This document shows, in pieces, positions 1 through 10,948 of a stretch of 64,000 bases of DNA; the first letter of the stretch is position 1; every line of letters begins with the position of its first letter. A program made the translations under genes and the position numbers. The notes below the pieces were generated by a model. The model saw nothing but the letters and a program-made list of their open reading frames with translations. It did not search any database and had not been told where the DNA came from. The stretch is from Sphingopyxis sp. (GTDB taxonomy: Bacteria; Pseudomonadota; Alphaproteobacteria; Sphingomonadales; Sphingomonadaceae): positions 85,991-149,990 of the forward strand of contig JAGHZY010000002.1 in assembly GCA_017745175.1 (NCBI GenBank), read 5' to 3'.

Positions 1-1333
1 TGCCCTCGACGCGCGTCAGCGGCACCGCACCCGGCAGGAAACAGGCCGCGCCGCCGGGGCCGCAATCGTCGCTGGCGCCAAGGAAGTCGACGCCCTTCCG
101 TGCTTCAAACGAAGTGGCGAGCGACCAGCGCGGCTCGCTCGGGCTGTAGCCGCCGCGGCCGGCGACCGACGCGGGGTCCACCCAACTCGCGTCGGCGCGC
201 AGGTTGAAGACACGCAGCCGGTCCTCGTTGATCGGCACGCCGGTCAGGCTGATGTCCTGATCGATGAAATCGAGCCCGCCGCCGACCGTCAGACGCCGCG
301 CCTGTGTCAACACGAGCGGGTAGGCGGTGTAGAGGCTCACGATCTGGGTATTCGACCTGACCGGAAAGCCCGTGATGTCGGGGCGCGTCCAGGCATAGGT
401 ATAGCTCGCGCCGAAACGCAGTCCTTCGCCGCCGACGCGGAATTCGTGGCCGACTTGCACGACCTTCTGCTCGTCGAAATCGGGGGTCGCGTAGAAACTG
501 ACCGTGGTGACGTCGCCCATGCCGGTCAGACCCGCAAGGCGCGCGCGCATGTTGCCGCCCCAGCGTCCGACGTCGCGCGAACCGAAATTCTGCGCGTTGA
601 AGTCGAAGGTGAAGGGGGTACGCGTGACGGTGACTTCGCCGACGACTTCGCCGGGAACGGCCCCCGGGCGCAGCGTCAGCCGTGCGTCCATGCCGGGAAT
701 GTCGCGCGCGAGCAGCAGATAGCGCTCGGCATCGACGATGTTGAACACCGACTGGTCGTCGAGGCGCGAGAGATAGCGCTGGAGCAGCCGTTCATTGGTG
801 CCGGCATCGCCGCGCACCTCGATGCGCGACATGCGCGCCGACAGGATGTCGAGCCGTACTACGCCGTCGCCGATCGTTTGCGGCGGCACGCGCACCGCAG
901 CCAGATAGCCCCGGCCGCGCAGGATTGTCGCCGCCCGGTCGCGAATGTCGCACACCGCCGAAATCGGCAGTTCCTGTCCGACGCGGTCGGACCAGCTGGG
1001 CGCGAGTATCGCATTGTCGATGCCCTCGACGCTCGAAAATTCGACCGCGCGCAGCGTGAAACGGACATTGGCGAATTCGGGGCTGGCAAGCGGGCAGGGA
1101 GCGCGCTCGATGCTGTCGTCGACCGCGACGACCTGTTCGCCGGGCTGTGCTGCAGGGGGCAGCGCGGGCCGCTGGATTTCCTCGCGCGTCGGAATCTGCG
1201 GCGTTGCCTGCGCCCACAGCGCGGCGGGCAGCGATGCGGCGATCAGTGCCACAGAACCGGCCAGCGAGTGGCCGATCGCGGCGCGTTTGGACCGCACGGT
1301 CGCAATATTCCTCATATCCCCCGACACGGCCAT
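1..1333 (-). CDS. ShlB/FhaC/HecB family two-partner secretion translocator (partial, runs off left edge)
   Basis: Minus-strand reading frame from ATG at 1333 to the window edge without stop (MAVSGDMRNIATVRSKRAAIGHSLAGSVALIAASLPAALWAQATPQIPTREEIQRPALPP...); signal peptide, POTRA-like and beta-barrel-like segments (FDFNAQNFGSRDVGRWGGNMRARLAGLTGMGD). Not in the ORF track because it is truncated. Confidence 0.8.
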   Translation of the reverse strand, partial: MAVSGDMRNIATVRSKRAAIGHSLAGSVALIAASLPAALWAQATPQIPTREEIQRPALPPAAQPGEQVVAVDDSIERAPCPLASPEFANVRFTLRAVEFSSVEGIDNAILAPSWSDRVGQELPISAVCDIRDRAATILRGRGYLAAVRVPPQTIGDGVVRLDILSARMSRIEVRGDAGTNERLLQRYLSRLDDQSVFNIVDAERYLLLARDIPGMDARLTLRPGAVPGEVVGEVTVTRTPFTFDFNAQNFGSRDVGRWGGNMRARLAGLTGMGDVTTVSFYATPDFDEQKVVQVGHEFRVGGEGLRFGASYTYAWTRPDITGFPVRSNTQIVSLYTAYPLVLTQARRLTVGGGLDFIDQDISLTGVPINEDRLRVFNLRADASWVDPASVAGRGGYSPSEPRWSLATSFEARKGVDFLGASDDCGPGGAACFLPGAVPLTRVEG

Positions 1334-1517
1334 TACCACCCCTTGTGTACGGGCGCGCCGCTACAGTTGCGGTACGCCAATTCAACCGGCCCTGCCGCGA
1401 AGCGGCAGCGCAAATTTCGACCCAAGGAAATGTTCCGTCATGCGACCTGCGGAATTTCCTCGGATAAATATCAGAGGGACAAGGCGGCCACAATGATTAC
1501 CGCCCCGTCCACCATCT

Positions 1518-2279
1518 TCATCGCGCCTCGGATTCGGACATCGTATCGACGAGGCGATTGAGCTGCGGCGAGCAGCCCTTCGCCATCAGCATGTCGACCG
1601 ATCCCTCGACCGTGTCGGGCGCATTTTCGACGGCGGCGAAGCGCACCGTCACCGGCTTCGCGAGGCCGCCGCCCGACAGGCGATAATCGGCGCCATATTG
1701 CACGGGCAGCACGTCGGTCGGCCATTTGCGGAAATTGGCGCCGTCGACGATCGCAACGGTCGCCTTCTTGCCGGCGCTTTCGATCTCGAGCGCGGTGTCG
1801 CCTTCCATGTTCGGACGCCACAACATCAGCACTGCCGGGTCGAGCACGCAGAAGGTACCGGCATCGCGATAGTCGAGCAGCCACAGATTGGGCGCACGCA
1901 GGTCGGCCGGCGACGGCGTCACAGGATCGCCGCGCGAGAAACCGCCGCGCGACCGCATCGTCGGGCCCTTGGCGAGCATCCGTGTGACGTTGCCGCCGAG
2001 CGATTGGCTCGCCTGCACGGTACCGGTGGCGCCGAAGGTGCCGGGGCCGGACAGGGTGCGTGTCTTGCCTGATTGCATCAGCACGACCTTGTCGCCCGCG
2101 ACGAGCGTCAGCTTGTCAGTTGCCTTGAGCCGCGCCCCCGTCGGATATTTTGCCGCCGAGGGACCGGTCGAACGGACGACCATCGATTGCGCGGCGGCAG
2201 CGGTGACGAGGGTCGTCGCCAATATGGCAGCCGCGGCGGAAAGGCCGAGGCGGCGCATCCGGAATTCAGGAAAGGACAT
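1518..2279 (-). CDS. Exported FecR-like domain protein
   Basis: 253 aa; signal peptide; segment LKATDKLTLVAGDKVVLMQSGKTRTLSGPGTF resembles FecR-type domains; overlaps the upstream cyclase gene by 14 bp. Confidence 0.6.
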   Translation of the reverse strand: MSFPEFRMRRLGLSAAAAILATTLVTAAAAQSMVVRSTGPSAAKYPTGARLKATDKLTLVAGDKVVLMQSGKTRTLSGPGTFGATGTVQASQSLGGNVTRMLAKGPTMRSRGGFSRGDPVTPSPADLRAPNLWLLDYRDAGTFCVLDPAVLMLWRPNMEGDTALEIESAGKKATVAIVDGANFRKWPTDVLPVQYGADYRLSGGGLAKPVTVRFAAVENAPDTVEGSVDMLMAKGCSPQLNRLVDTMSESEAR

Positions 2280-4356
2280 AGCTTTCTCCCTTTTCGGTCT
2301 CGTTCAGGCGTTCGATCAGGAACATGATGGATGCGTCCTGACCCAATTCGGTGGCCAATGCTGTGGCGCCCGTCACATAGGTATTTTTATCGCCCGCTGC
2401 GTGCGCCGCGACAAGCGCCGCGATGTCCGCGCGCCGTTCAGGGTCGAGGTCGGGCCGCGGCGTCAGGACATCGACGGGCTGCGCGCGGCCGCGCAGCGTG
2501 ACGCGGCCCATCGGGACGAGATCATCACGGCCCGACCGTGCCGCGGCTTCGGCCGAAAAAAGCACCCCGGTCCTGAGGCTCTTGTTCGCAGCCTCGAGCC
2601 GCGATGCGGTGTTCATGCTGTCGCCCAGCGCCGTATACTGGATGCGGCCTTCGCCGCCGAAATTGCCAACGATCGCATCGCCGACGTGCAGCCCGACGCG
2701 CGTCATGCCGATCGGGGGCACATCCTCGGCGGCGAGGTCGACGCGGAATTTCTCGCCCGCCCGATACATGGCGAGCGCCGCGGCTGCGGCTTGCGGTCCG
2801 TCGTCGGGGCGGCTCAATGGTGCGCCCCAGAAAGCGACGATGGCGTCGCCGACGAATTTATCGATCGTACCGCCATGTTCGAGCACGATGTCCGACAGTC
2901 GGTCGAGATATTCGTTGAGCAGCCGCGCCACGGTTTCCGGCGTCACCGCGTGGCTGAGTTTCGTGAAGCCTTCGAGGTCGGTGAAGATGCAGAATATGTT
3001 GCGCCGTTCGCCGTGAAGCGAAAGCTGGTCGGGGTCGCGCATGATCTGTTCGGCGACGTCGGCGGGCAGATATTTGCCGAGCGCCGACTGGGCGAAGGCG
3101 CGCTGGCGCGACCCGATCGTGCGCGCAGCGGTGCCGATCGCGGCATAGCCGAACAGCCAGCCGACTGCCCAGCCGAAGGTCGGCAGCGTCGTCGTGTCGA
3201 TGCCGCGCCCCTGCAGCCAGAACGGAAAGGCGATGAAGAAGGCCATCTGTCCGAGGAAGGCGAGCGCGACCCAGCGCGCACGGAGATCGATCAGGCTGGT
3301 GAGACCGCCGGCAAGGACGATCAGCACTGCGAGCCCCCATAGTGCGGGTGCGGGGATCGGCCGCGTCCATGCGCCATCGAGTTGCTGCGCCAGCATATGC
3401 GCATGGACCTCGAGTCCGATCATCGTCTCATGCTGTCCGGTGATCGCGTCGGGAAAGCGGCTGAGGGGCGTGTTGAATTGATCATTGTCGATGATATCGC
3501 CGCCGATCAGAATGTATCGGCCCTTTACCAGTTCGCCGAAACCCGCCCGCATGTCGGCATCCATCGGCAGCGCGAAGGTGTCGATCGGGATATTGGCGAA
3601 GACCGGTTCTTCCTGACCGGCGGCGGCACGCGCGGGGACGAGAAAACGGATATTTCCCTGAAAGTTGGCGTGCGCGGAATCGATCGGGGCGAGGGCGTTC
3701 GACATGAGCGGTGGCAGGTTCTTCGGCCGGTCGGGCCAGTTGCGGATCACGCTGTCGTCGTCGGTGCGGAACAGGACGCTCGTCGGCTTCGTCCTGTCGG
3801 TCGTGACGTCGGCGATGAAGGCCTCGAGGAACTTCTGCTGTTCGTAGAAGATGGTGTTGGGATTGCTCGACTGCTCGGCATAGGCGAGCCAGGTCGGGGT
3901 CTTCATCGCGCGAAGCTGCGCCTTCAGCATGTCGTCGTCGGGGCGCGGCGAGTCGAAGGCGATATCGATTCCGATCGCTTTCGCCCCCATCTGGTCGAGA
4001 TTGCCGAGTGCCCTGGCGAGCAAGGTGCGGTCGAGCGGCGAACGGATTCCGGTGTTGAACAATGTCTCGTCGTTATAGGTGACAAGCGTAATACGCTTGT
4101 CCTGCTCGACATGCGGCGCCATGAGCGTCGCGCGCGCGTCATAGAGCGCACGCTCGGCGGCATCGATCAGCGGCATCTGCCAGCTGAAGCGCGCGATCAG
4201 CATCGCGATGAACAGAAAGGCGATCGTCGCGGCCATCCGCGATGGGCCGAGCTGCATGACCAGCCGGCGCACGCGCTTGCGCAGCGGGACTGCCGCAGGC
4301 TGGTTCGCAGGCGCGGGGGCGTCCGCGGCGGGAAGGATGGTTTCGGGCGCGTTCAT
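2266..4356 (-). CDS. CHASE2 domain-containing adenylate/guanylate cyclase
   Basis: 696 aa; N-terminal TM, CHASE2-like extracytoplasmic region, three TMs, C-terminal class III cyclase motifs (FTDLEGFTKL, FVGDAIVAFWGAP, GRIQYTALGDSMNTASRLE). Confidence 0.9.
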   Translation of the reverse strand: MNAPETILPAADAPAPANQPAAVPLRKRVRRLVMQLGPSRMAATIAFLFIAMLIARFSWQMPLIDAAERALYDARATLMAPHVEQDKRITLVTYNDETLFNTGIRSPLDRTLLARALGNLDQMGAKAIGIDIAFDSPRPDDDMLKAQLRAMKTPTWLAYAEQSSNPNTIFYEQQKFLEAFIADVTTDRTKPTSVLFRTDDDSVIRNWPDRPKNLPPLMSNALAPIDSAHANFQGNIRFLVPARAAAGQEEPVFANIPIDTFALPMDADMRAGFGELVKGRYILIGGDIIDNDQFNTPLSRFPDAITGQHETMIGLEVHAHMLAQQLDGAWTRPIPAPALWGLAVLIVLAGGLTSLIDLRARWVALAFLGQMAFFIAFPFWLQGRGIDTTTLPTFGWAVGWLFGYAAIGTAARTIGSRQRAFAQSALGKYLPADVAEQIMRDPDQLSLHGERRNIFCIFTDLEGFTKLSHAVTPETVARLLNEYLDRLSDIVLEHGGTIDKFVGDAIVAFWGAPLSRPDDGPQAAAAALAMYRAGEKFRVDLAAEDVPPIGMTRVGLHVGDAIVGNFGGEGRIQYTALGDSMNTASRLEAANKSLRTGVLFSAEAAARSGRDDLVPMGRVTLRGRAQPVDVLTPRPDLDPERRADIAALVAAHAAGDKNTYVTGATALATELGQDASIMFLIERLNETEKGESYVLS

Positions 4357-4360
4357 CGGA

Positions 4361-7300
4361 TCAGCGAGCGGCGCGGCCGGCAGCCTCTCCGTTCCGCGCG
4401 GTCGTCGTGCCGCCGCCGTGGAGCAGCGGCTGGCCGCCGTCGCCGATGATCGCGAAACCCGCCCAATAATAGGGGTGCGAGGTCTGCTTGTCGTCCATCA
4501 GCCGTATCTGCGTCGCCGCCAGCGCGTCGGCGACGCTCGTTCCCTCGCTCGCCGCAAAAAGCCCGCCGATCAGCCGTTTGGTCGCATCGAAATCGTCGGG
4601 GGCGGGCCAATGGCTTGCGATCACCGAGCGGCCGCCCGCGCCGATGAAGCTGCGCACCAGCCCGTCGAGCGCATTGCCGCCGCCCGAAAGCCCGGCCTCG
4701 CGCGTCGCCGCGACGCTCGCCGCGCCCGCCGTGTCGCATGCCGAGAGGATGACAAGGTCGGCGTCGATCTTGAGATCGAAGATTTCCTGGAAGGTGAGCA
4801 ACCCGTCCGAATCCGCGCCGCCGAACGAGGTCACCAGCGCGGGGCGCGCGGGGCAGGCGGCGCGGGGTGCGGTAACAAGGCCGTGCGTCGCAAAATGGAT
4901 GATGCGATAATCCTTGAGGTCCGCGCGGCTTTTTACCGCGGTGTCGGTGAACGCGCCGCCGGTGAGCAGGGTCCCTGCCGCGCGGCCCATTGCGTTGCGG
5001 GCGGTCTCCAGCTCGTCGGCCGAAATCGGGCGCGCCCATTGGGCGACGTCCCACAGGCAATCGCCATCGACGCTCGCGCCCGCCGCGCCGCGCGTGCCGA
5101 GCGAGGGGAGGCGACCATTGACCGGCTGGTTCTCGCCAAGGCCGAAATATTGGTTGCTTGCCTTCGACGGGGTGGCCTGTCGCGCGTTGCGGAAGCCGAG
5201 GGTCGATACCGCCGTGCTCGGGCGCGTCGTGCGGCCCAGCCAGGCGATCTGCCGCATGTCGAACGGATCGGCATCGGGATCGAGCAGGCGCTGTTCATAC
5301 GCGGCAAGGCCGGTATCGGCGGTGATGAGCAGGTTGACCGGCAGCCGCAGCATCGCGCCGTCGGGTTCGAAGATCAGATGCGGTACGCCCGGCAGGCGCG
5401 CGGCGACGGGGCCGAAGAGCTGGCCATAGAGCTTATACGATGTCGCCGCGTCGAAGGGATAGGTGACGCGGCGGCCATTTTCGACGATCGAAATGGTCGA
5501 ACGGATCGTGTCGACCGCGGCTTCGAGCCCCGATGCGCTGATGTCCGATTTCCAGAGTTGCGCGCCGCCCTGTTCGATCAGCATCGCATAGACGCCTTCA
5601 CCGACGACGAGCATCTTCAGATACGCTTCGTCGGGACGCAGAACCTTCTGCAGCTCGGCAAGGTCGAGCTTGCCCGGGGCGACGACGCGATATTGCGGAA
5701 AGGCCGACAGCGCCACAACGGTTTCGGACTGCTGGAACGCCAGATTGTCGAGCTGCGTCCTGACGTCGGCGCGCAAGGCGTTGACTTCGGGCGATTGGGG
5801 AAGCTGTGCGAGGCGGGCATCCTCGATCCGCGCGCGCTCGATGTCGCGGTTCAGCGTTGTCGCCTGCCGGAACAGCCGCGCGCCGTCGTCGCTGCCGCTC
5901 GACAATTCGCGCGCCAGCACCGCCTGCGTGTCGGCGACGCCGGGACGGATCTGGAGCTGACTCGCGACGAAGAAATCCTCGATCGCCTTGGGATCGCTAG
6001 CCGACCGCGCGGCGAGGAGCCGGTAGTAGGGCGCCATGATATTCGCCATGCCTGCGGTCGAGCGCTGCGAGTTCGCGAGCGCGGTCACCACCTCGCGGTA
6101 GATGCCGAGCGCCTTGTCTTCCTGTCCGTGACGGGTGAGGAAAGCGGCATAACGCGCCCGCGCCGAGGCGAGGGCGTTGGTCTCGGGATATTCGACCGCG
6201 AGCAGGTTCACCGATTCGAGGAAGCGTGCGTCGGCAGCGCCATTGTCGCCGCTAGCTTCCTCGGCGAGTGCCAGCTCGCCGAGCATTTGCGAACGCAGGC
6301 GGATGATCGAGGTGACGCGGCCTTCGCGCACCGCGATGGCGTCGGCCAGGCCCTTCATCTGCGCGGTTTTTGCCGCCTGCGCATTGCCGCGCAGCCGTTC
6401 GACGGTGCCGAGCAGATGGACCGCCTGCGCATCGATGATCTGCGCGCGTTCGGCCGGGGTCAGGCGCTCGCGATCGTTGCTCTGGCGCATGACGCGGGCA
6501 TTGTCGCCGCTGTTGACCCCGGCGACGATCTGCGGCGTCAGCGTCACCGCGCCGTGTGCGACCGTCACGCCGCTGGTCAGGGGCGGAATCGGCGCCCGGA
6601 GCAGCGCCGCAGCGCCGTCATAATCGCGCTGGTTGAGGGCATTGATCGCGCGGAAATTGCGGCGAAGGCGCAACTGGACCGGGTCGGCGGTGGGGATTGC
6701 CTCGACTTCGGCAAACAGGCGCCCGGCCTCGGCGAATTCGCCGAGGTTCGAACGTTGCAGCGCGCGATTCAGCGTGACTTCGGTCGGATCGATGTCAGCC
6801 GCGGCGCGTTCCTCGATCGCGCGGCGCGACAGCGCCTCGAAAAATTCCGCCGCCTCGGAATAGTCACCGCTATGATTGCGGCGATATCCCTCGGCGAGCG
6901 CCTTGTCGACGTCGATCGTTCCCGCGAGCGTGCGCGCGAAGCCGTCGTTGCTGCCGACCGATATCGTCGCGACCTTGATCGCGCCGGGCACGACGCGGTG
7001 CTGGCGCACGGATTCGAGCGCGATGTTCAGCGCGTCGCCGTAAGCGGCGAAACCCTCGACGCTATAGGCGACCTTGCCCTCCGTCTCGACCCGCGTCGTC
7101 CACGCGACATTGCTGTTCCTGAGCGTACACGCTCCGTCGGTGGCGCAGGTCACCGTGCCCGCGCGCGCCTGTTCGATCCGCGCGCGCGCTTCGGACGCGG
7201 TGGCGCGCAACTCGCGGACCGTACCGACCGGCTGGCTCGCGTCGCGGCAGATGATGGTCCAGGCGCGTTCGAACATGCCCTTGACCACAGCGTCGCGGAC

Positions 7301-7453
7301 CGTCGCCTGCACTTCGCAGAGCGAACCGCCCTGGTCGCCGATCGAGAAACTGTCGCGGCGCGTCGGGTCGGTGCCCTGCGCCAGTGCGGTTCCGGGCGCG
7401 GCAAAAGCCAGCAACGCCAGGATCGGCACAGTATGCGGACGTCGAGCGGTCAT
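4361..7453 (-). CDS. CHAT domain-containing protein with TPR-like repeats and signal peptide
   Basis: Start at MTARRPHTVPILALLAFAAPGTALAQ; C-terminal CHAT motifs IIHFATHGL and LVILSACDTA (His/Cys dyad), FIGAGGRSVIASHW. The 8209 start in the ORF track over-extends. Confidence 0.88.
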   Translation of the reverse strand: MTARRPHTVPILALLAFAAPGTALAQGTDPTRRDSFSIGDQGGSLCEVQATVRDAVVKGMFERAWTIICRDASQPVGTVRELRATASEARARIEQARAGTVTCATDGACTLRNSNVAWTTRVETEGKVAYSVEGFAAYGDALNIALESVRQHRVVPGAIKVATISVGSNDGFARTLAGTIDVDKALAEGYRRNHSGDYSEAAEFFEALSRRAIEERAAADIDPTEVTLNRALQRSNLGEFAEAGRLFAEVEAIPTADPVQLRLRRNFRAINALNQRDYDGAAALLRAPIPPLTSGVTVAHGAVTLTPQIVAGVNSGDNARVMRQSNDRERLTPAERAQIIDAQAVHLLGTVERLRGNAQAAKTAQMKGLADAIAVREGRVTSIIRLRSQMLGELALAEEASGDNGAADARFLESVNLLAVEYPETNALASARARYAAFLTRHGQEDKALGIYREVVTALANSQRSTAGMANIMAPYYRLLAARSASDPKAIEDFFVASQLQIRPGVADTQAVLARELSSGSDDGARLFRQATTLNRDIERARIEDARLAQLPQSPEVNALRADVRTQLDNLAFQQSETVVALSAFPQYRVVAPGKLDLAELQKVLRPDEAYLKMLVVGEGVYAMLIEQGGAQLWKSDISASGLEAAVDTIRSTISIVENGRRVTYPFDAATSYKLYGQLFGPVAARLPGVPHLIFEPDGAMLRLPVNLLITADTGLAAYEQRLLDPDADPFDMRQIAWLGRTTRPSTAVSTLGFRNARQATPSKASNQYFGLGENQPVNGRLPSLGTRGAAGASVDGDCLWDVAQWARPISADELETARNAMGRAAGTLLTGGAFTDTAVKSRADLKDYRIIHFATHGLVTAPRAACPARPALVTSFGGADSDGLLTFQEIFDLKIDADLVILSACDTAGAASVAATREAGLSGGGNALDGLVRSFIGAGGRSVIASHWPAPDDFDATKRLIGGLFAASEGTSVADALAATQIRLMDDKQTSHPYYWAGFAIIGDGGQPLLHGGGTTTARNGEAAGRAAR

Positions 7454-7663
7454 CACAAATCCCCCAAACACAGACGTAGCGACGCCATGCCGACGCAGCG
7501 CCGGCAAGGCGGAAACTATATAGCTGCGGTGCGACCCATTCCCTTGGGCCGAAACCCTAAACCCTTCGTAAGCGAAAGGGAAGTGATCTGCCGCACAGGC
7601 GGCTTGCGCCGCGGGGACGCGCCACCTATCTGCGAAGGGACATTCCATTCCGGTGAGGACAAA

Positions 7664-8821: not shown

Positions 8822-9271
8822 TTACGCCGCCTTGGCATCCTCATACGCCTGCGCTTCCGCCGCAATCAGCATGTCGGCGAGCATCCAATAGGCCTCGCCC
8901 CACGCCGCAAGCACCTCGTCGGTCGCAACTTCGGCGCCCAGCACGTCGCGGATTGCGGGGAGCAGCGCATCGGCGACATAAGGATAATGCTCCGCCTTCA
9001 CGCCCGTATCGACATGGCGCGCAACCATGCGCGACACTGCGGGCCCGAGGTTCTGCAGTTTGTCGATATTCTTCGCATAAGCGAGGATCGCCGCTGCGAG
9101 GCGCTTCGGCTGTTCGCCGCTCGTCTGCGCAGCGCGGTCGAACATCGCCTCGATGTCCCTGTTCTCGAACAAGCGCGCATACATCGCGGTGGTGATCGCA
9201 AGGCCGTGCTTTTCGAGCGCGGGGGCAGTGGCCTTGACGATCGTCATCGCGTGGGCGGAAGCGGTACGCAT
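8822..9271 (-). CDS. Globin family protein (flavohemoglobin globin-domain-like)
   Basis: 149 aa; MYARLFENRDIEAMFDRAAQ... AAILAYAKNIDKLQNLGPAVSRMVARHVDTGVKAEHYPYVADALLPAIRDVLG. Confidence 0.85.
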   Translation of the reverse strand: MRTASAHAMTIVKATAPALEKHGLAITTAMYARLFENRDIEAMFDRAAQTSGEQPKRLAAAILAYAKNIDKLQNLGPAVSRMVARHVDTGVKAEHYPYVADALLPAIRDVLGAEVATDEVLAAWGEAYWMLADMLIAAEAQAYEDAKAA

Positions 9272-9303
9272 AAAATATCCTTTGGCTGGGTGGGGGGAGA
9301 GTG

Positions 9304-9702
9304 TCAGTCGGCGCGACGACCGGTGGGGTCGGCAAGGCGGAAAAACAGCGCGAGCTGGAGGCTTTCGGCGATGCTTGCGGCCTTGGCCTGCAAGGCTTTC
9401 GCGGCATCAGGCGCCAGCAGTTCGTTGGTCGTGCCGGCCCAGATCGCGAGCCAGCGGTCGAACATCGCGGGGGTGATCGCCTCGCGGTGCTTCAGATGCC
9501 CGGCGACCGGGCTGCCTTTGTAGCGGCCGGCGGTCAGCATCACCGACGACCAGAAGGCGACGAGCTTTTCGAGATGCTCCGGCCAGTCGTGCACTGCGGC
9601 GTTGAACAGCGGGCCGATGTCGGCGTCGGCGCGCACCCGGGCATAAAAGGCCGGGATCAGGCGCTCGAGTGCGGCTTCATCGATCTGGTCGTCCCGTGTC
9701 AC
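9304..9702 (-). CDS. Group III truncated hemoglobin
   Basis: IPAFYARVRADADIGPLFNAAVHDWPEHLEKLVAFWSSVMLTAGRYKGSP; GTG start at 9702 is plausible, TTG at 9714 is the alternative. Confidence 0.85.
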   Translation of the reverse strand: MTRDDQIDEAALERLIPAFYARVRADADIGPLFNAAVHDWPEHLEKLVAFWSSVMLTAGRYKGSPVAGHLKHREAITPAMFDRWLAIWAGTTNELLAPDAAKALQAKAASIAESLQLALFFRLADPTGRRAD

Positions 9703-9716
9703 GATTCGCTCCAATC

Positions 9717-9733
9717 ATGCATTTGAAGCGCAT
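9717..9733. promoter_or_regulatory. NsrR-type operator
   Basis: ATGCATTTGAAGCGCAT, close to the known NsrR pattern ATGCATTTnAAATGCAT; lies between the truncated Hb gene and the divergent Rrf2 gene. Confidence 0.65.
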
Positions 9734-9741
9734 GTATAATC

Positions 9742-9757
9742 GCAATTTGAAACATGC
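9742..9757. promoter_or_regulatory. Second, weaker NsrR-like site
   Basis: GCAATTTGAAACATGC, same half-site logic with mismatches. Confidence 0.4.
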
Positions 9758-9804
9758 AACAAAAATACATATTATAGGCCGACCGGAATTTTCGAAGGAC
9801 CAGG

Positions 9805-10242
9805 ATGCGCCTGACGCGCTACACCGACTATGCGATGCGTGTACTCCTCTATGCGGGGGCGCAGCACGAGGCGCGGCTGAGCCCGATCTCCGAAATCTCG
9901 CGCGCCTATGGCATTTCGCAGAATCATCTGATGAAGGTCGTCAACGACCTGGTGAACGCGGGCTATCTCGAAAGCGTGCGCGGGCGGTTCGGCGGGATAA
10001 GGCTGGCGAAGCCCGCGGCCACGATCAATGTCGGCGCGGTCGTGCGCCATACCGAGGAGGGTTTCGACCTCGTCGACTGCGGCAGTTGCATCATCGCGCC
10101 GGCGTGCGGGCTGACCGGCGCGCTCGCCGAGGCGCTCGCCGCCTTCATGAAGGTGCTCGACGGTTACAGCCTCGCCGACCTGCTCGCGAAACGCGCAAAT
10201 TTCGCTGCGCTCTTCGGGCTTGACGAGCCCGTGCGCAGCTGA
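9805..10242 (+). CDS. nsrR: Rrf2 family transcriptional regulator, NsrR-like
   Basis: 145 aa; MRLTRYTDYAMRVLLYAG... SQNHLMKVVNDLVNAGYLESVRGRFGGIRLAK plus cysteine cluster CGSCIIAPAC. Confidence 0.85.
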   Translation: MRLTRYTDYAMRVLLYAGAQHEARLSPISEISRAYGISQNHLMKVVNDLVNAGYLESVRGRFGGIRLAKPAATINVGAVVRHTEEGFDLVDCGSCIIAPACGLTGALAEALAAFMKVLDGYSLADLLAKRANFAALFGLDEPVRS

Positions 10243-10246
10243 AAGG

Positions 10247-10948
10247 TCAGCGGCGCGGCCAGCCCTTGTCGCGCGCCTGTCGCTCGGCCGGCGCTCCGAG
10301 CGGATCGCTCGCCATCATCGCGGCCGCGGCGGCGGCGAGTTCGCCCGACGAAGCCTGACGATAGTCGGCGCCCGCCTGTCCCCGCATCGTCCGCTCGAGA
10401 TGCCAGCGTCCGTTGTCGTGACAGCCGATACCGTCCAGCGATGCGCTTTCAAAGCTGCGGCAATAGCGCCCGGCCTTGTCCTCAAAGCTGAGACCGATCC
10501 GCACCGCGGCATCGGATGGCTGGTTCGAGGCGAGCTGCGTGTCGAGTGCCTCGGCAAGCGGACCCGCAGCGATGATCATGCCGTCCGCTTCGGCGATACT
10601 GGCCGCAGGCGTCCATGGTCGCAGCCCCAGTGCGAGCCCGAGCGCGAGCGATGCCGCGATCGCGCCCCAATGGATCGGAGCGAAGCGCGCGCTCTTCGCC
10701 TCGCGGCGCGCGGCGAGGCTGGTGTCGATTGCCGTGTCGGCGGTCAGCAGTGCACGCAGCCGCTCGGGCACGGGTTCCTCGGCGACAGGCGCATAATGCG
10801 CTGTCAGCTGCGTCTTCAGCGCGTGGTGCCGCGCGATCTCGGCCGCGAGCGCGGGATCGTTTGTCGCCTCGCGTTCGATCCGGCGCGCGGTCAGGTCATC
10901 GAGTTCGCCATCGACGAAGGCGGCGACGGTGGCGGGATCGAAACTCAT
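10247..10948 (-). CDS. Anti-sigma factor (putative)
   Basis: 233 aa; MSFDPATVAAFVDGELDDLTARRIEREATNDPALAAEIARH, single TM; overlaps the ECF sigma gene by 4 bp. Confidence 0.8.
   Translation of the reverse strand: MSFDPATVAAFVDGELDDLTARRIEREATNDPALAAEIARHHALKTQLTAHYAPVAEEPVPERLRALLTADTAIDTSLAARREAKSARFAPIHWGAIAASLALGLALGLRPWTPAASIAEADGMIIAAGPLAEALDTQLASNQPSDAAVRIGLSFEDKAGRYCRSFESASLDGIGCHDNGRWHLERTMRGQAGADYRQASSGELAAAAAAMMASDPLGAPAERQARDKGWPRR

Follow-up and report, generated by a model that had tools for sequence, protein, structure and literature searches.

A predicted CHAT protease gene, a CHASE2-cyclase gene and the gene of a small exported protein stand in one block with the tpsB and tpsA genes of a two-partner secretion (TPS) system at the left edge of the window, the 64,000-nucleotide stretch of DNA analyzed here, and these five genes recur together in other genomes in several orders. 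That the genes of the block function jointly is nearly certain, and we lean toward the view that they form a unit of two-partner secretion (type Vb) equipped with its own module for processing and sensing; this unit would operate in the steps set out below.

The window corresponds to bases 85991-149990 of a 149,990-base contig, so the sequence to its left is also readable. All genes of the block are on the minus strand and follow one another as CHAT (4361-7453; 1030 aa; PF12770, E=4.5e-47), CHASE2 class III nucleotide cyclase (2266-4356; 696 aa; PF05226, E=2.5e-25, and PF00211, E=5.4e-16), small exported protein (1518-2279), the outer-membrane translocator gene tpsB (2-1339; the N-terminal 446 of 609 aa are in the window) and tpsA, a 2,611-aa ORF (contig 77662-85497) that starts ~494 bases left of the window edge; cysS comes next. 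Gene calls and Pfam place the first four genes where an earlier sequence-only reading had put them, and the 4-nt gap between CHAT and cyclase (4357-4360) and the 14-nt overlap between cyclase and small protein gene (2266-2279) that it reported are both exact; a 178-nt gap between the small protein gene and tpsB was absent from that reading, and the TpsA that it predicted to the left of the window is there, after TpsB. Upstream, CHAT diverges from a DUF1476-BolA-glutaredoxin block, and the intergenic region between them (7454-7663) is likely the start region of the operon; a promoter and terminator scan returned no promoter consensus above chance, with scores not above those of shuffles. Two adjacent globin-like genes lie beyond the glutaredoxin gene, both on the minus strand (8822-9271, matching Globin PF00042 at E=6.6e-11, and 9304-9714, weakly matching Bac_globin at E=0.02).

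The CHAT protein begins with a signal peptide, MTARRPHTVPILALLAFAAPGTALAQ (7376-7453, minus strand), which has a hydrophobic stretch and an A-x-A motif. It continues with a TPR region, matched by TPR proteins in a profile search of solved structures and making up the larger part of the protein, and with an intact CHAT domain. Four cysteines downstream of the signal peptide (Cys46, Cys69, Cys103 and Cys109) are invariant in a 17-sequence alignment, which fits with export. The catalytic His857 (HFATHG; codon at 4883-4885, minus strand) and Cys906 (LSACDTA; codon at 4736-4738, minus strand) are invariant in 17 of 17 sequences and are kept in relatives down to 24% identity. Judged by its sequence, the protein is predicted to be an exported TPR-CHAT cysteine protease. 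Searches of the window proteins with Pfam, NCBIfam and PADLOC returned no family that names this CHAT lineage or the small exported protein. A second CHAT in the same genome (C97:45856-46872, L013) is without TPS neighbors and provides an internal negative control.

The cyclase joins a CHASE2 extracytoplasmic sensor domain (residues 51-350; 3307-4206, minus strand; PF05226) to a catalytic domain (2482-3000, minus strand; PF00211) with an intact class III active site, in which metal-binding Asp460 and Asp504, base-binding Lys500 and Asp579, and transition-state Asn582 and Arg586 are invariant in 16 of 16 aligned sequences. We take Lys500 and Asp579 to fit adenylate cyclase specificity; to our knowledge, the ligands of CHASE2 domains are mostly unknown. 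The small protein encoded next is exported and harbors two invariant cysteines (Cys144 and Cys236). It had been described as FecR-like from the sequence alone, a label that does not hold: the protein has no Pfam match, PF04773 is found in 0 of 22 aligned relatives at E<=0.1 (E. coli FecR itself, as positive control, matches at 2.8e-17), and its profile aligned with E. coli FecR gives an hhalign probability of 0.2%. A fair structure model (pLDDT 78) has no recognizable fold and no PDB match at E<=0.001 with Foldseek. The small protein gene is tandem-duplicated at L047, L064, L201, L205, L218, L221 and L222, and at L053 a reversed 367-aa ORF (9296-10448) between this gene and TpsB breaks the operon.

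The sequence-only reading had staked its proposal on the genes being conserved together, and they are. Across Sphingomonadales and other Alphaproteobacteria, the five genes lie together in four orders: CHAT-cyclase-small protein-TpsB-TpsA; TpsB-TpsA-CHAT-cyclase-small protein; TpsB-TpsA-CHAT-small protein-cyclase; and CHAT-small protein-cyclase-TpsB-TpsA, the last in a divergent version (L083 and L084) with a cyclase of ~30% identity. Since the same genes recur together in several orders, the block is not a chance neighborhood. The 40 cyclase loci read in 121 genomes of the family show two states, either the complete five-gene block or cyclase and small protein alone; this pair never adjoins just one of CHAT and TpsBA, though these flank it on opposite sides. 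Near-exceptions are a locus with a weak TpsB-like match (E=1e-09) 5 kb off (L076) and another that ends in TpsB at the contig end (L060). Lone pairs of cyclase and small protein (L068-L070, L072-L074, L078 and L079) are followed by a conserved gene run, part of which carries CxxCH haem-binding motifs (clusters c4, c5, c6 and c9).

A search with the CHAT alignment identifies CHAT as the constant TPS partner. Seventy of 80 named CHAT loci adjoin TPS genes, and for the other 10 the examined stretch ends within 4 kb; the arrangements are CHAT-cyclase-small protein-TpsB(-TpsA) in 34, TpsB-TpsA-CHAT in 25, CHAT-TpsB-TpsA in 5, and TpsA-CHAT-cyclase-small protein in 6, with TpsB seen upstream in 5 of these. 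Other alphaproteobacterial families have TpsB-TpsA-CHAT, followed in some by small protein and cyclase (L087-L091, L271 and L289); at L093, L096, L097 and L100, there is no cyclase in the stretch read. On a FastTree tree of 89 CHAT rows, the arrangement changes at least seven times and the cyclase linkage at least five times, the long branches of L097 and L100 being unsure. No TPS genes are found near CHATs with profile scores under ~335 bits (L272-L285), which sets the boundary of the family; the TPS link thus belongs to a single CHAT lineage and does not extend to CHAT proteins generally.

CHAT and cyclase also co-occur almost perfectly at the level of whole genomes. With CHAT counted if over 700 bits, 37 of the 121 family genomes carry both, none CHAT only, 2 cyclase only and 82 neither (Fisher p ~4e-29, kinship ignored). 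In G052 and G108, the cyclase counted is of the divergent type, lying in the same block; if these cyclases are not counted, the table reads 35/2/2/82 (p ~1e-25, kinship again ignored). One of the cyclase-only genomes, G019, is an 85% complete draft that carries a CHAT-type TpsA tail, and in the other, G002, a paralogue of 40% identity stands next to other genes. Both within-genus contrasts, G030/G113 and G036/G119, are of joint presence or absence. Sixteen of the 37 genomes have CHAT and cyclase unlinked; where CHAT loci were read in these, they again adjoin TpsA or a TpsA-sized ORF.

These distributions bear on a narrower reading, in which CHAT and TpsBA are a functional pair, and the cyclase and small protein act only as a regulator of the same regulon, responding to an unrelated envelope signal and not to TpsA or its cleavage. 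CHASE2 domains elsewhere do sense unrelated envelope signals. The reading also accommodates the 16 genomes with cyclase and small protein at other loci, the 30 of 70 named CHAT-TpsBA loci without an adjacent cyclase, and the Burkholderia CHASE2 kinases, which sit with other exported proteins (PMC5192318). Against it stand the near-perfect co-occurrence of CHAT and cyclase, even where they are unlinked, and the fact that the two modules have come together repeatedly and in different orders, and we regard so full a separation as unlikely, if worth keeping in mind.

The secretion partners themselves fit type Vb secretion. TpsB has an ShlB-type POTRA and barrel in a 609-aa gene (POTRA_2 domain at 842-1060, minus strand; PF08479, E=3.9e-07), and the adjacent 2,611-aa ORF is homologous to operon TpsAs that match the N-terminal TPS domain PF05860 (G012, G073, G024, G083 and G086), itself falling below the Pfam threshold for this family. 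Complete CHAT-linked TpsAs end in a ~320-aa domain, a cysteine pair, a variable acidic linker and, shortly before the stop, a tail with the consensus (D/E)PVTG(A/S)GN(D/E)xLW; in the TpsA of this locus, the pair is CFIASPAAC and the tail codons GNDDLW lie at contig 77680-77697 (minus strand). The cysteine pair is present in the last 150 aa of 30 of 34 family CHAT-linked TpsAs, and thus missing in some, versus 3 of 14 controls.

The conserved tail of CHAT-linked TpsA is new here, and controls without CHAT lack it. A matrix built from 21 clade-1 tails, with significance assessed by shuffling, detects the tail in 21 of 21 clade-1 TpsAs, which trained the matrix and are thus not independent, in 10 of the 13 TpsAs from the second CHAT clade (p<=0.02), and in none of 14 same-family TpsAs without CHAT (Fisher p ~1e-09). 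The exact tail is weaker outside the order Sphingomonadales: it is found in 4 of 14 more distant CHAT-linked TpsAs at p<=0.03, with most out-of-family TpsAs at chance, and several other distant CHAT-linked TpsAs end in a visibly similar GN/GK-x-x-LW that the matrix leaves unscored. At the DNA level, a pattern for GN(D/E)(D/E)(L/F)W gave 51 matches in the 121 genomes versus 2 for the reversed pattern. Among 30 of these loci that were read, 16 have the PVTG context, all 6-36 aa before a stop; those without it are sites in other proteins, including one recurrent conserved gene, so that the tail is a mark of TpsA rather than a sorting tag of general use. A second TpsB-TpsA pair in the same genome (C97:102939 onward, L006) encodes a 4,356-aa TpsA without the tail, a further internal negative control. 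TpsAs unlinked to CHAT (L172, L174, L175, L176, L177 and L178) end in a conserved sequence of another kind, ...PVVPVYPRKQARH, perhaps itself a tag.

A structure model of the TpsA C-terminus (pLDDT 80; no PDB match at E<=0.001 with Foldseek) has high confidence up to residue 326, with disorder along the conserved tail. Recognition or cleavage sites are often conserved yet unstructured. As modeled, a disordered but conserved tail is what would be expected of a recognition site and fits cutting or recognition by CHAT, and it is likely that CHAT acts on TpsA. The same features might be read differently, with CHAT serving TPS export in general, either as a periplasmic chaperone of TPR type or as a protease for quality control, the tail recognized by TpsB or another factor, and TpsA left uncut by CHAT. 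The prominence of the TPR region in the protein would suit such a role, as would the position of the tail in a disordered segment that is open to binding by other factors; however, a catalytic His and Cys that are invariant in all 17 sequences, and a tail found in CHAT-linked TpsAs and absent from the 14 others of the same family, make this improbable.

TpsB-TpsA is also the export route of contact-dependent inhibition (CDI), and caspase-like peptidases process some polymorphic toxins (PMC3482391); CHAT could then be a toxin-releasing peptidase in CDI or polymorphic toxin delivery. This is very improbable and is largely refuted by the TpsA C-terminus, which is conserved across genera and not polymorphic; TpsA has no Pfam toxin domain, no immunity-like gene accompanies it, with cysS next, and the locus thus lacks the polymorphic C-terminal toxin and immunity gene of CdiAB systems. 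Pycsar-type antiphage defense, with the cyclase producing a signal for CHAT as effector, has next to no probability: PADLOC PycC models match the cyclase domain (best E=2.5e-32), as they generally match class III cyclases, CHAT has no PADLOC match and is placed outside the cytoplasm by its signal peptide, no effector of the cytoplasmic Pycsar kind was matched, and TPS linkage is constant. The idea that unrelated genes simply lie side by side in a conserved part of the chromosome draws on the presence of cysS downstream in many of the genomes and is refuted as a sole explanation, as gene content is kept while orders differ and unlinked copies co-occur.

Under our preferred reading of a type Vb unit with its own processing and sensing module, TpsB would export the large beta-helical TpsA, whose C-terminus a small disulfide loop would retain in the periplasm, with the disordered tail exposed. 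The exported TPR-CHAT protease would recognize the TpsA C-terminal region and cut TpsA, and in this way control how TpsA matures or is released. Together with the CHASE2 domain, the small exported protein may in turn sense the secretion or cleavage state, which the cyclase would convert into cytoplasmic cAMP; that the cyclase reads TpsA or its cleavage is plausible. In a more speculative version, to which we attach limited credence, the cut in the periplasmic tail of a surface-held TpsA would itself be the signal, read by the CHASE2 cyclase via a new periplasmic protein family. cAMP would then convey the state of attachment or secretion, and PVTGAGN(D/E)xLW would be a C-terminal signal of a new kind, by which a bacterial caspase-like protease recognizes its target.

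In the literature searched, which covers few subscription journals so that absence is not proof, we found no paper that joins a CHAT domain and filamentous hemagglutinin, none that pairs a CHAT domain or CHASE2 with two-partner secretion, and no published description of the conserved five-gene unit; a review that devotes a section to accessory TPS proteins names none of CHAT, caspase, cyclase and FecR. There is a close functional likeness to the CdrA-CdrB/LapG-LapD system of Pseudomonas aeruginosa, in which a TPS adhesin stays on the surface through its periplasmic C-terminus, which bears a cysteine hook, and the periplasmic cysteine protease LapG cuts the periplasmic end of the TpsA CdrA and frees it under c-di-GMP control (PMC4694147, PMC5422565, PMC11898600). 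The TpsA described here has a cysteine pair that may form such a hook, and its control would likewise lie with a cysteine protease in the periplasm and a second-messenger protein in the inner membrane. LapG, however, is of another peptidase family and LapD reads c-di-GMP from inside, whereas here a TPR-CHAT protein is found with a CHASE2 cyclase that would make the signal, and, unlike LapG-LapD, the genes form one unit. A LapG-type protease and a LapD-type receptor are absent from it, and the two systems may work alike without shared membership.

In HMW1 and HxuA of Haemophilus influenzae, a C-terminal disulfide loop keeps TpsA in its TpsB transporter with the chain end in the periplasm (PMC5422565); these systems have no dedicated CHAT or cyclase. 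In Sinorhizobium meliloti, inner-membrane CHASE2 cyclases (CyaK, CyaD1 and CyaD2) are coupled to the outer-membrane beta-barrel NsrA, with cAMP output through Clr, the targets of which include exported proteins (PMC7529298, PMC5498481, PMC13001267); CyaK reads signals via NsrA (PMC7529298, PMC13001267). Our unit would resemble that system in its working, though not in its parts: that system senses a plant protein signal, and no CHAT protease or TPS pair is described for it in these three papers. The Burkholderia BiofilmReg operon resembles our locus in placing a CHASE2 sensor beside an exported accessory protein (PMC5192318), but its sensor is a histidine kinase and not a cyclase, its accessory protein is a LysM-FecR protein with a true FecR domain, and TPS and CHAT genes are missing. 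Craspase Csx29 of type III-E CRISPR has the same TPR plus CHAT cysteine protease architecture (PMC10028731, PMC9935389); it is cytoplasmic and RNA-guided, whereas the CHAT protein here is exported and TPS-linked, and in the profile search of solved structures, where all matches were TPR proteins, Csx29 was not matched at E<=0.01.

We place the unit within type Vb secretion, with a new processing and signaling module. If correct, this would show what one exported group of caspase-like CHAT proteases does and on which substrate, add cAMP and CHAT to c-di-GMP and LapG as means of regulated adhesin release, and supply a CHASE2 sensor domain with a defined input. By analogy with the systems above, the unit appears to have a part for each known role, drawn from unrelated families: CHAT as the protease, the tail and cysteine pair as site and anchor, and the CHASE2-cyclase with the small protein for sensing.
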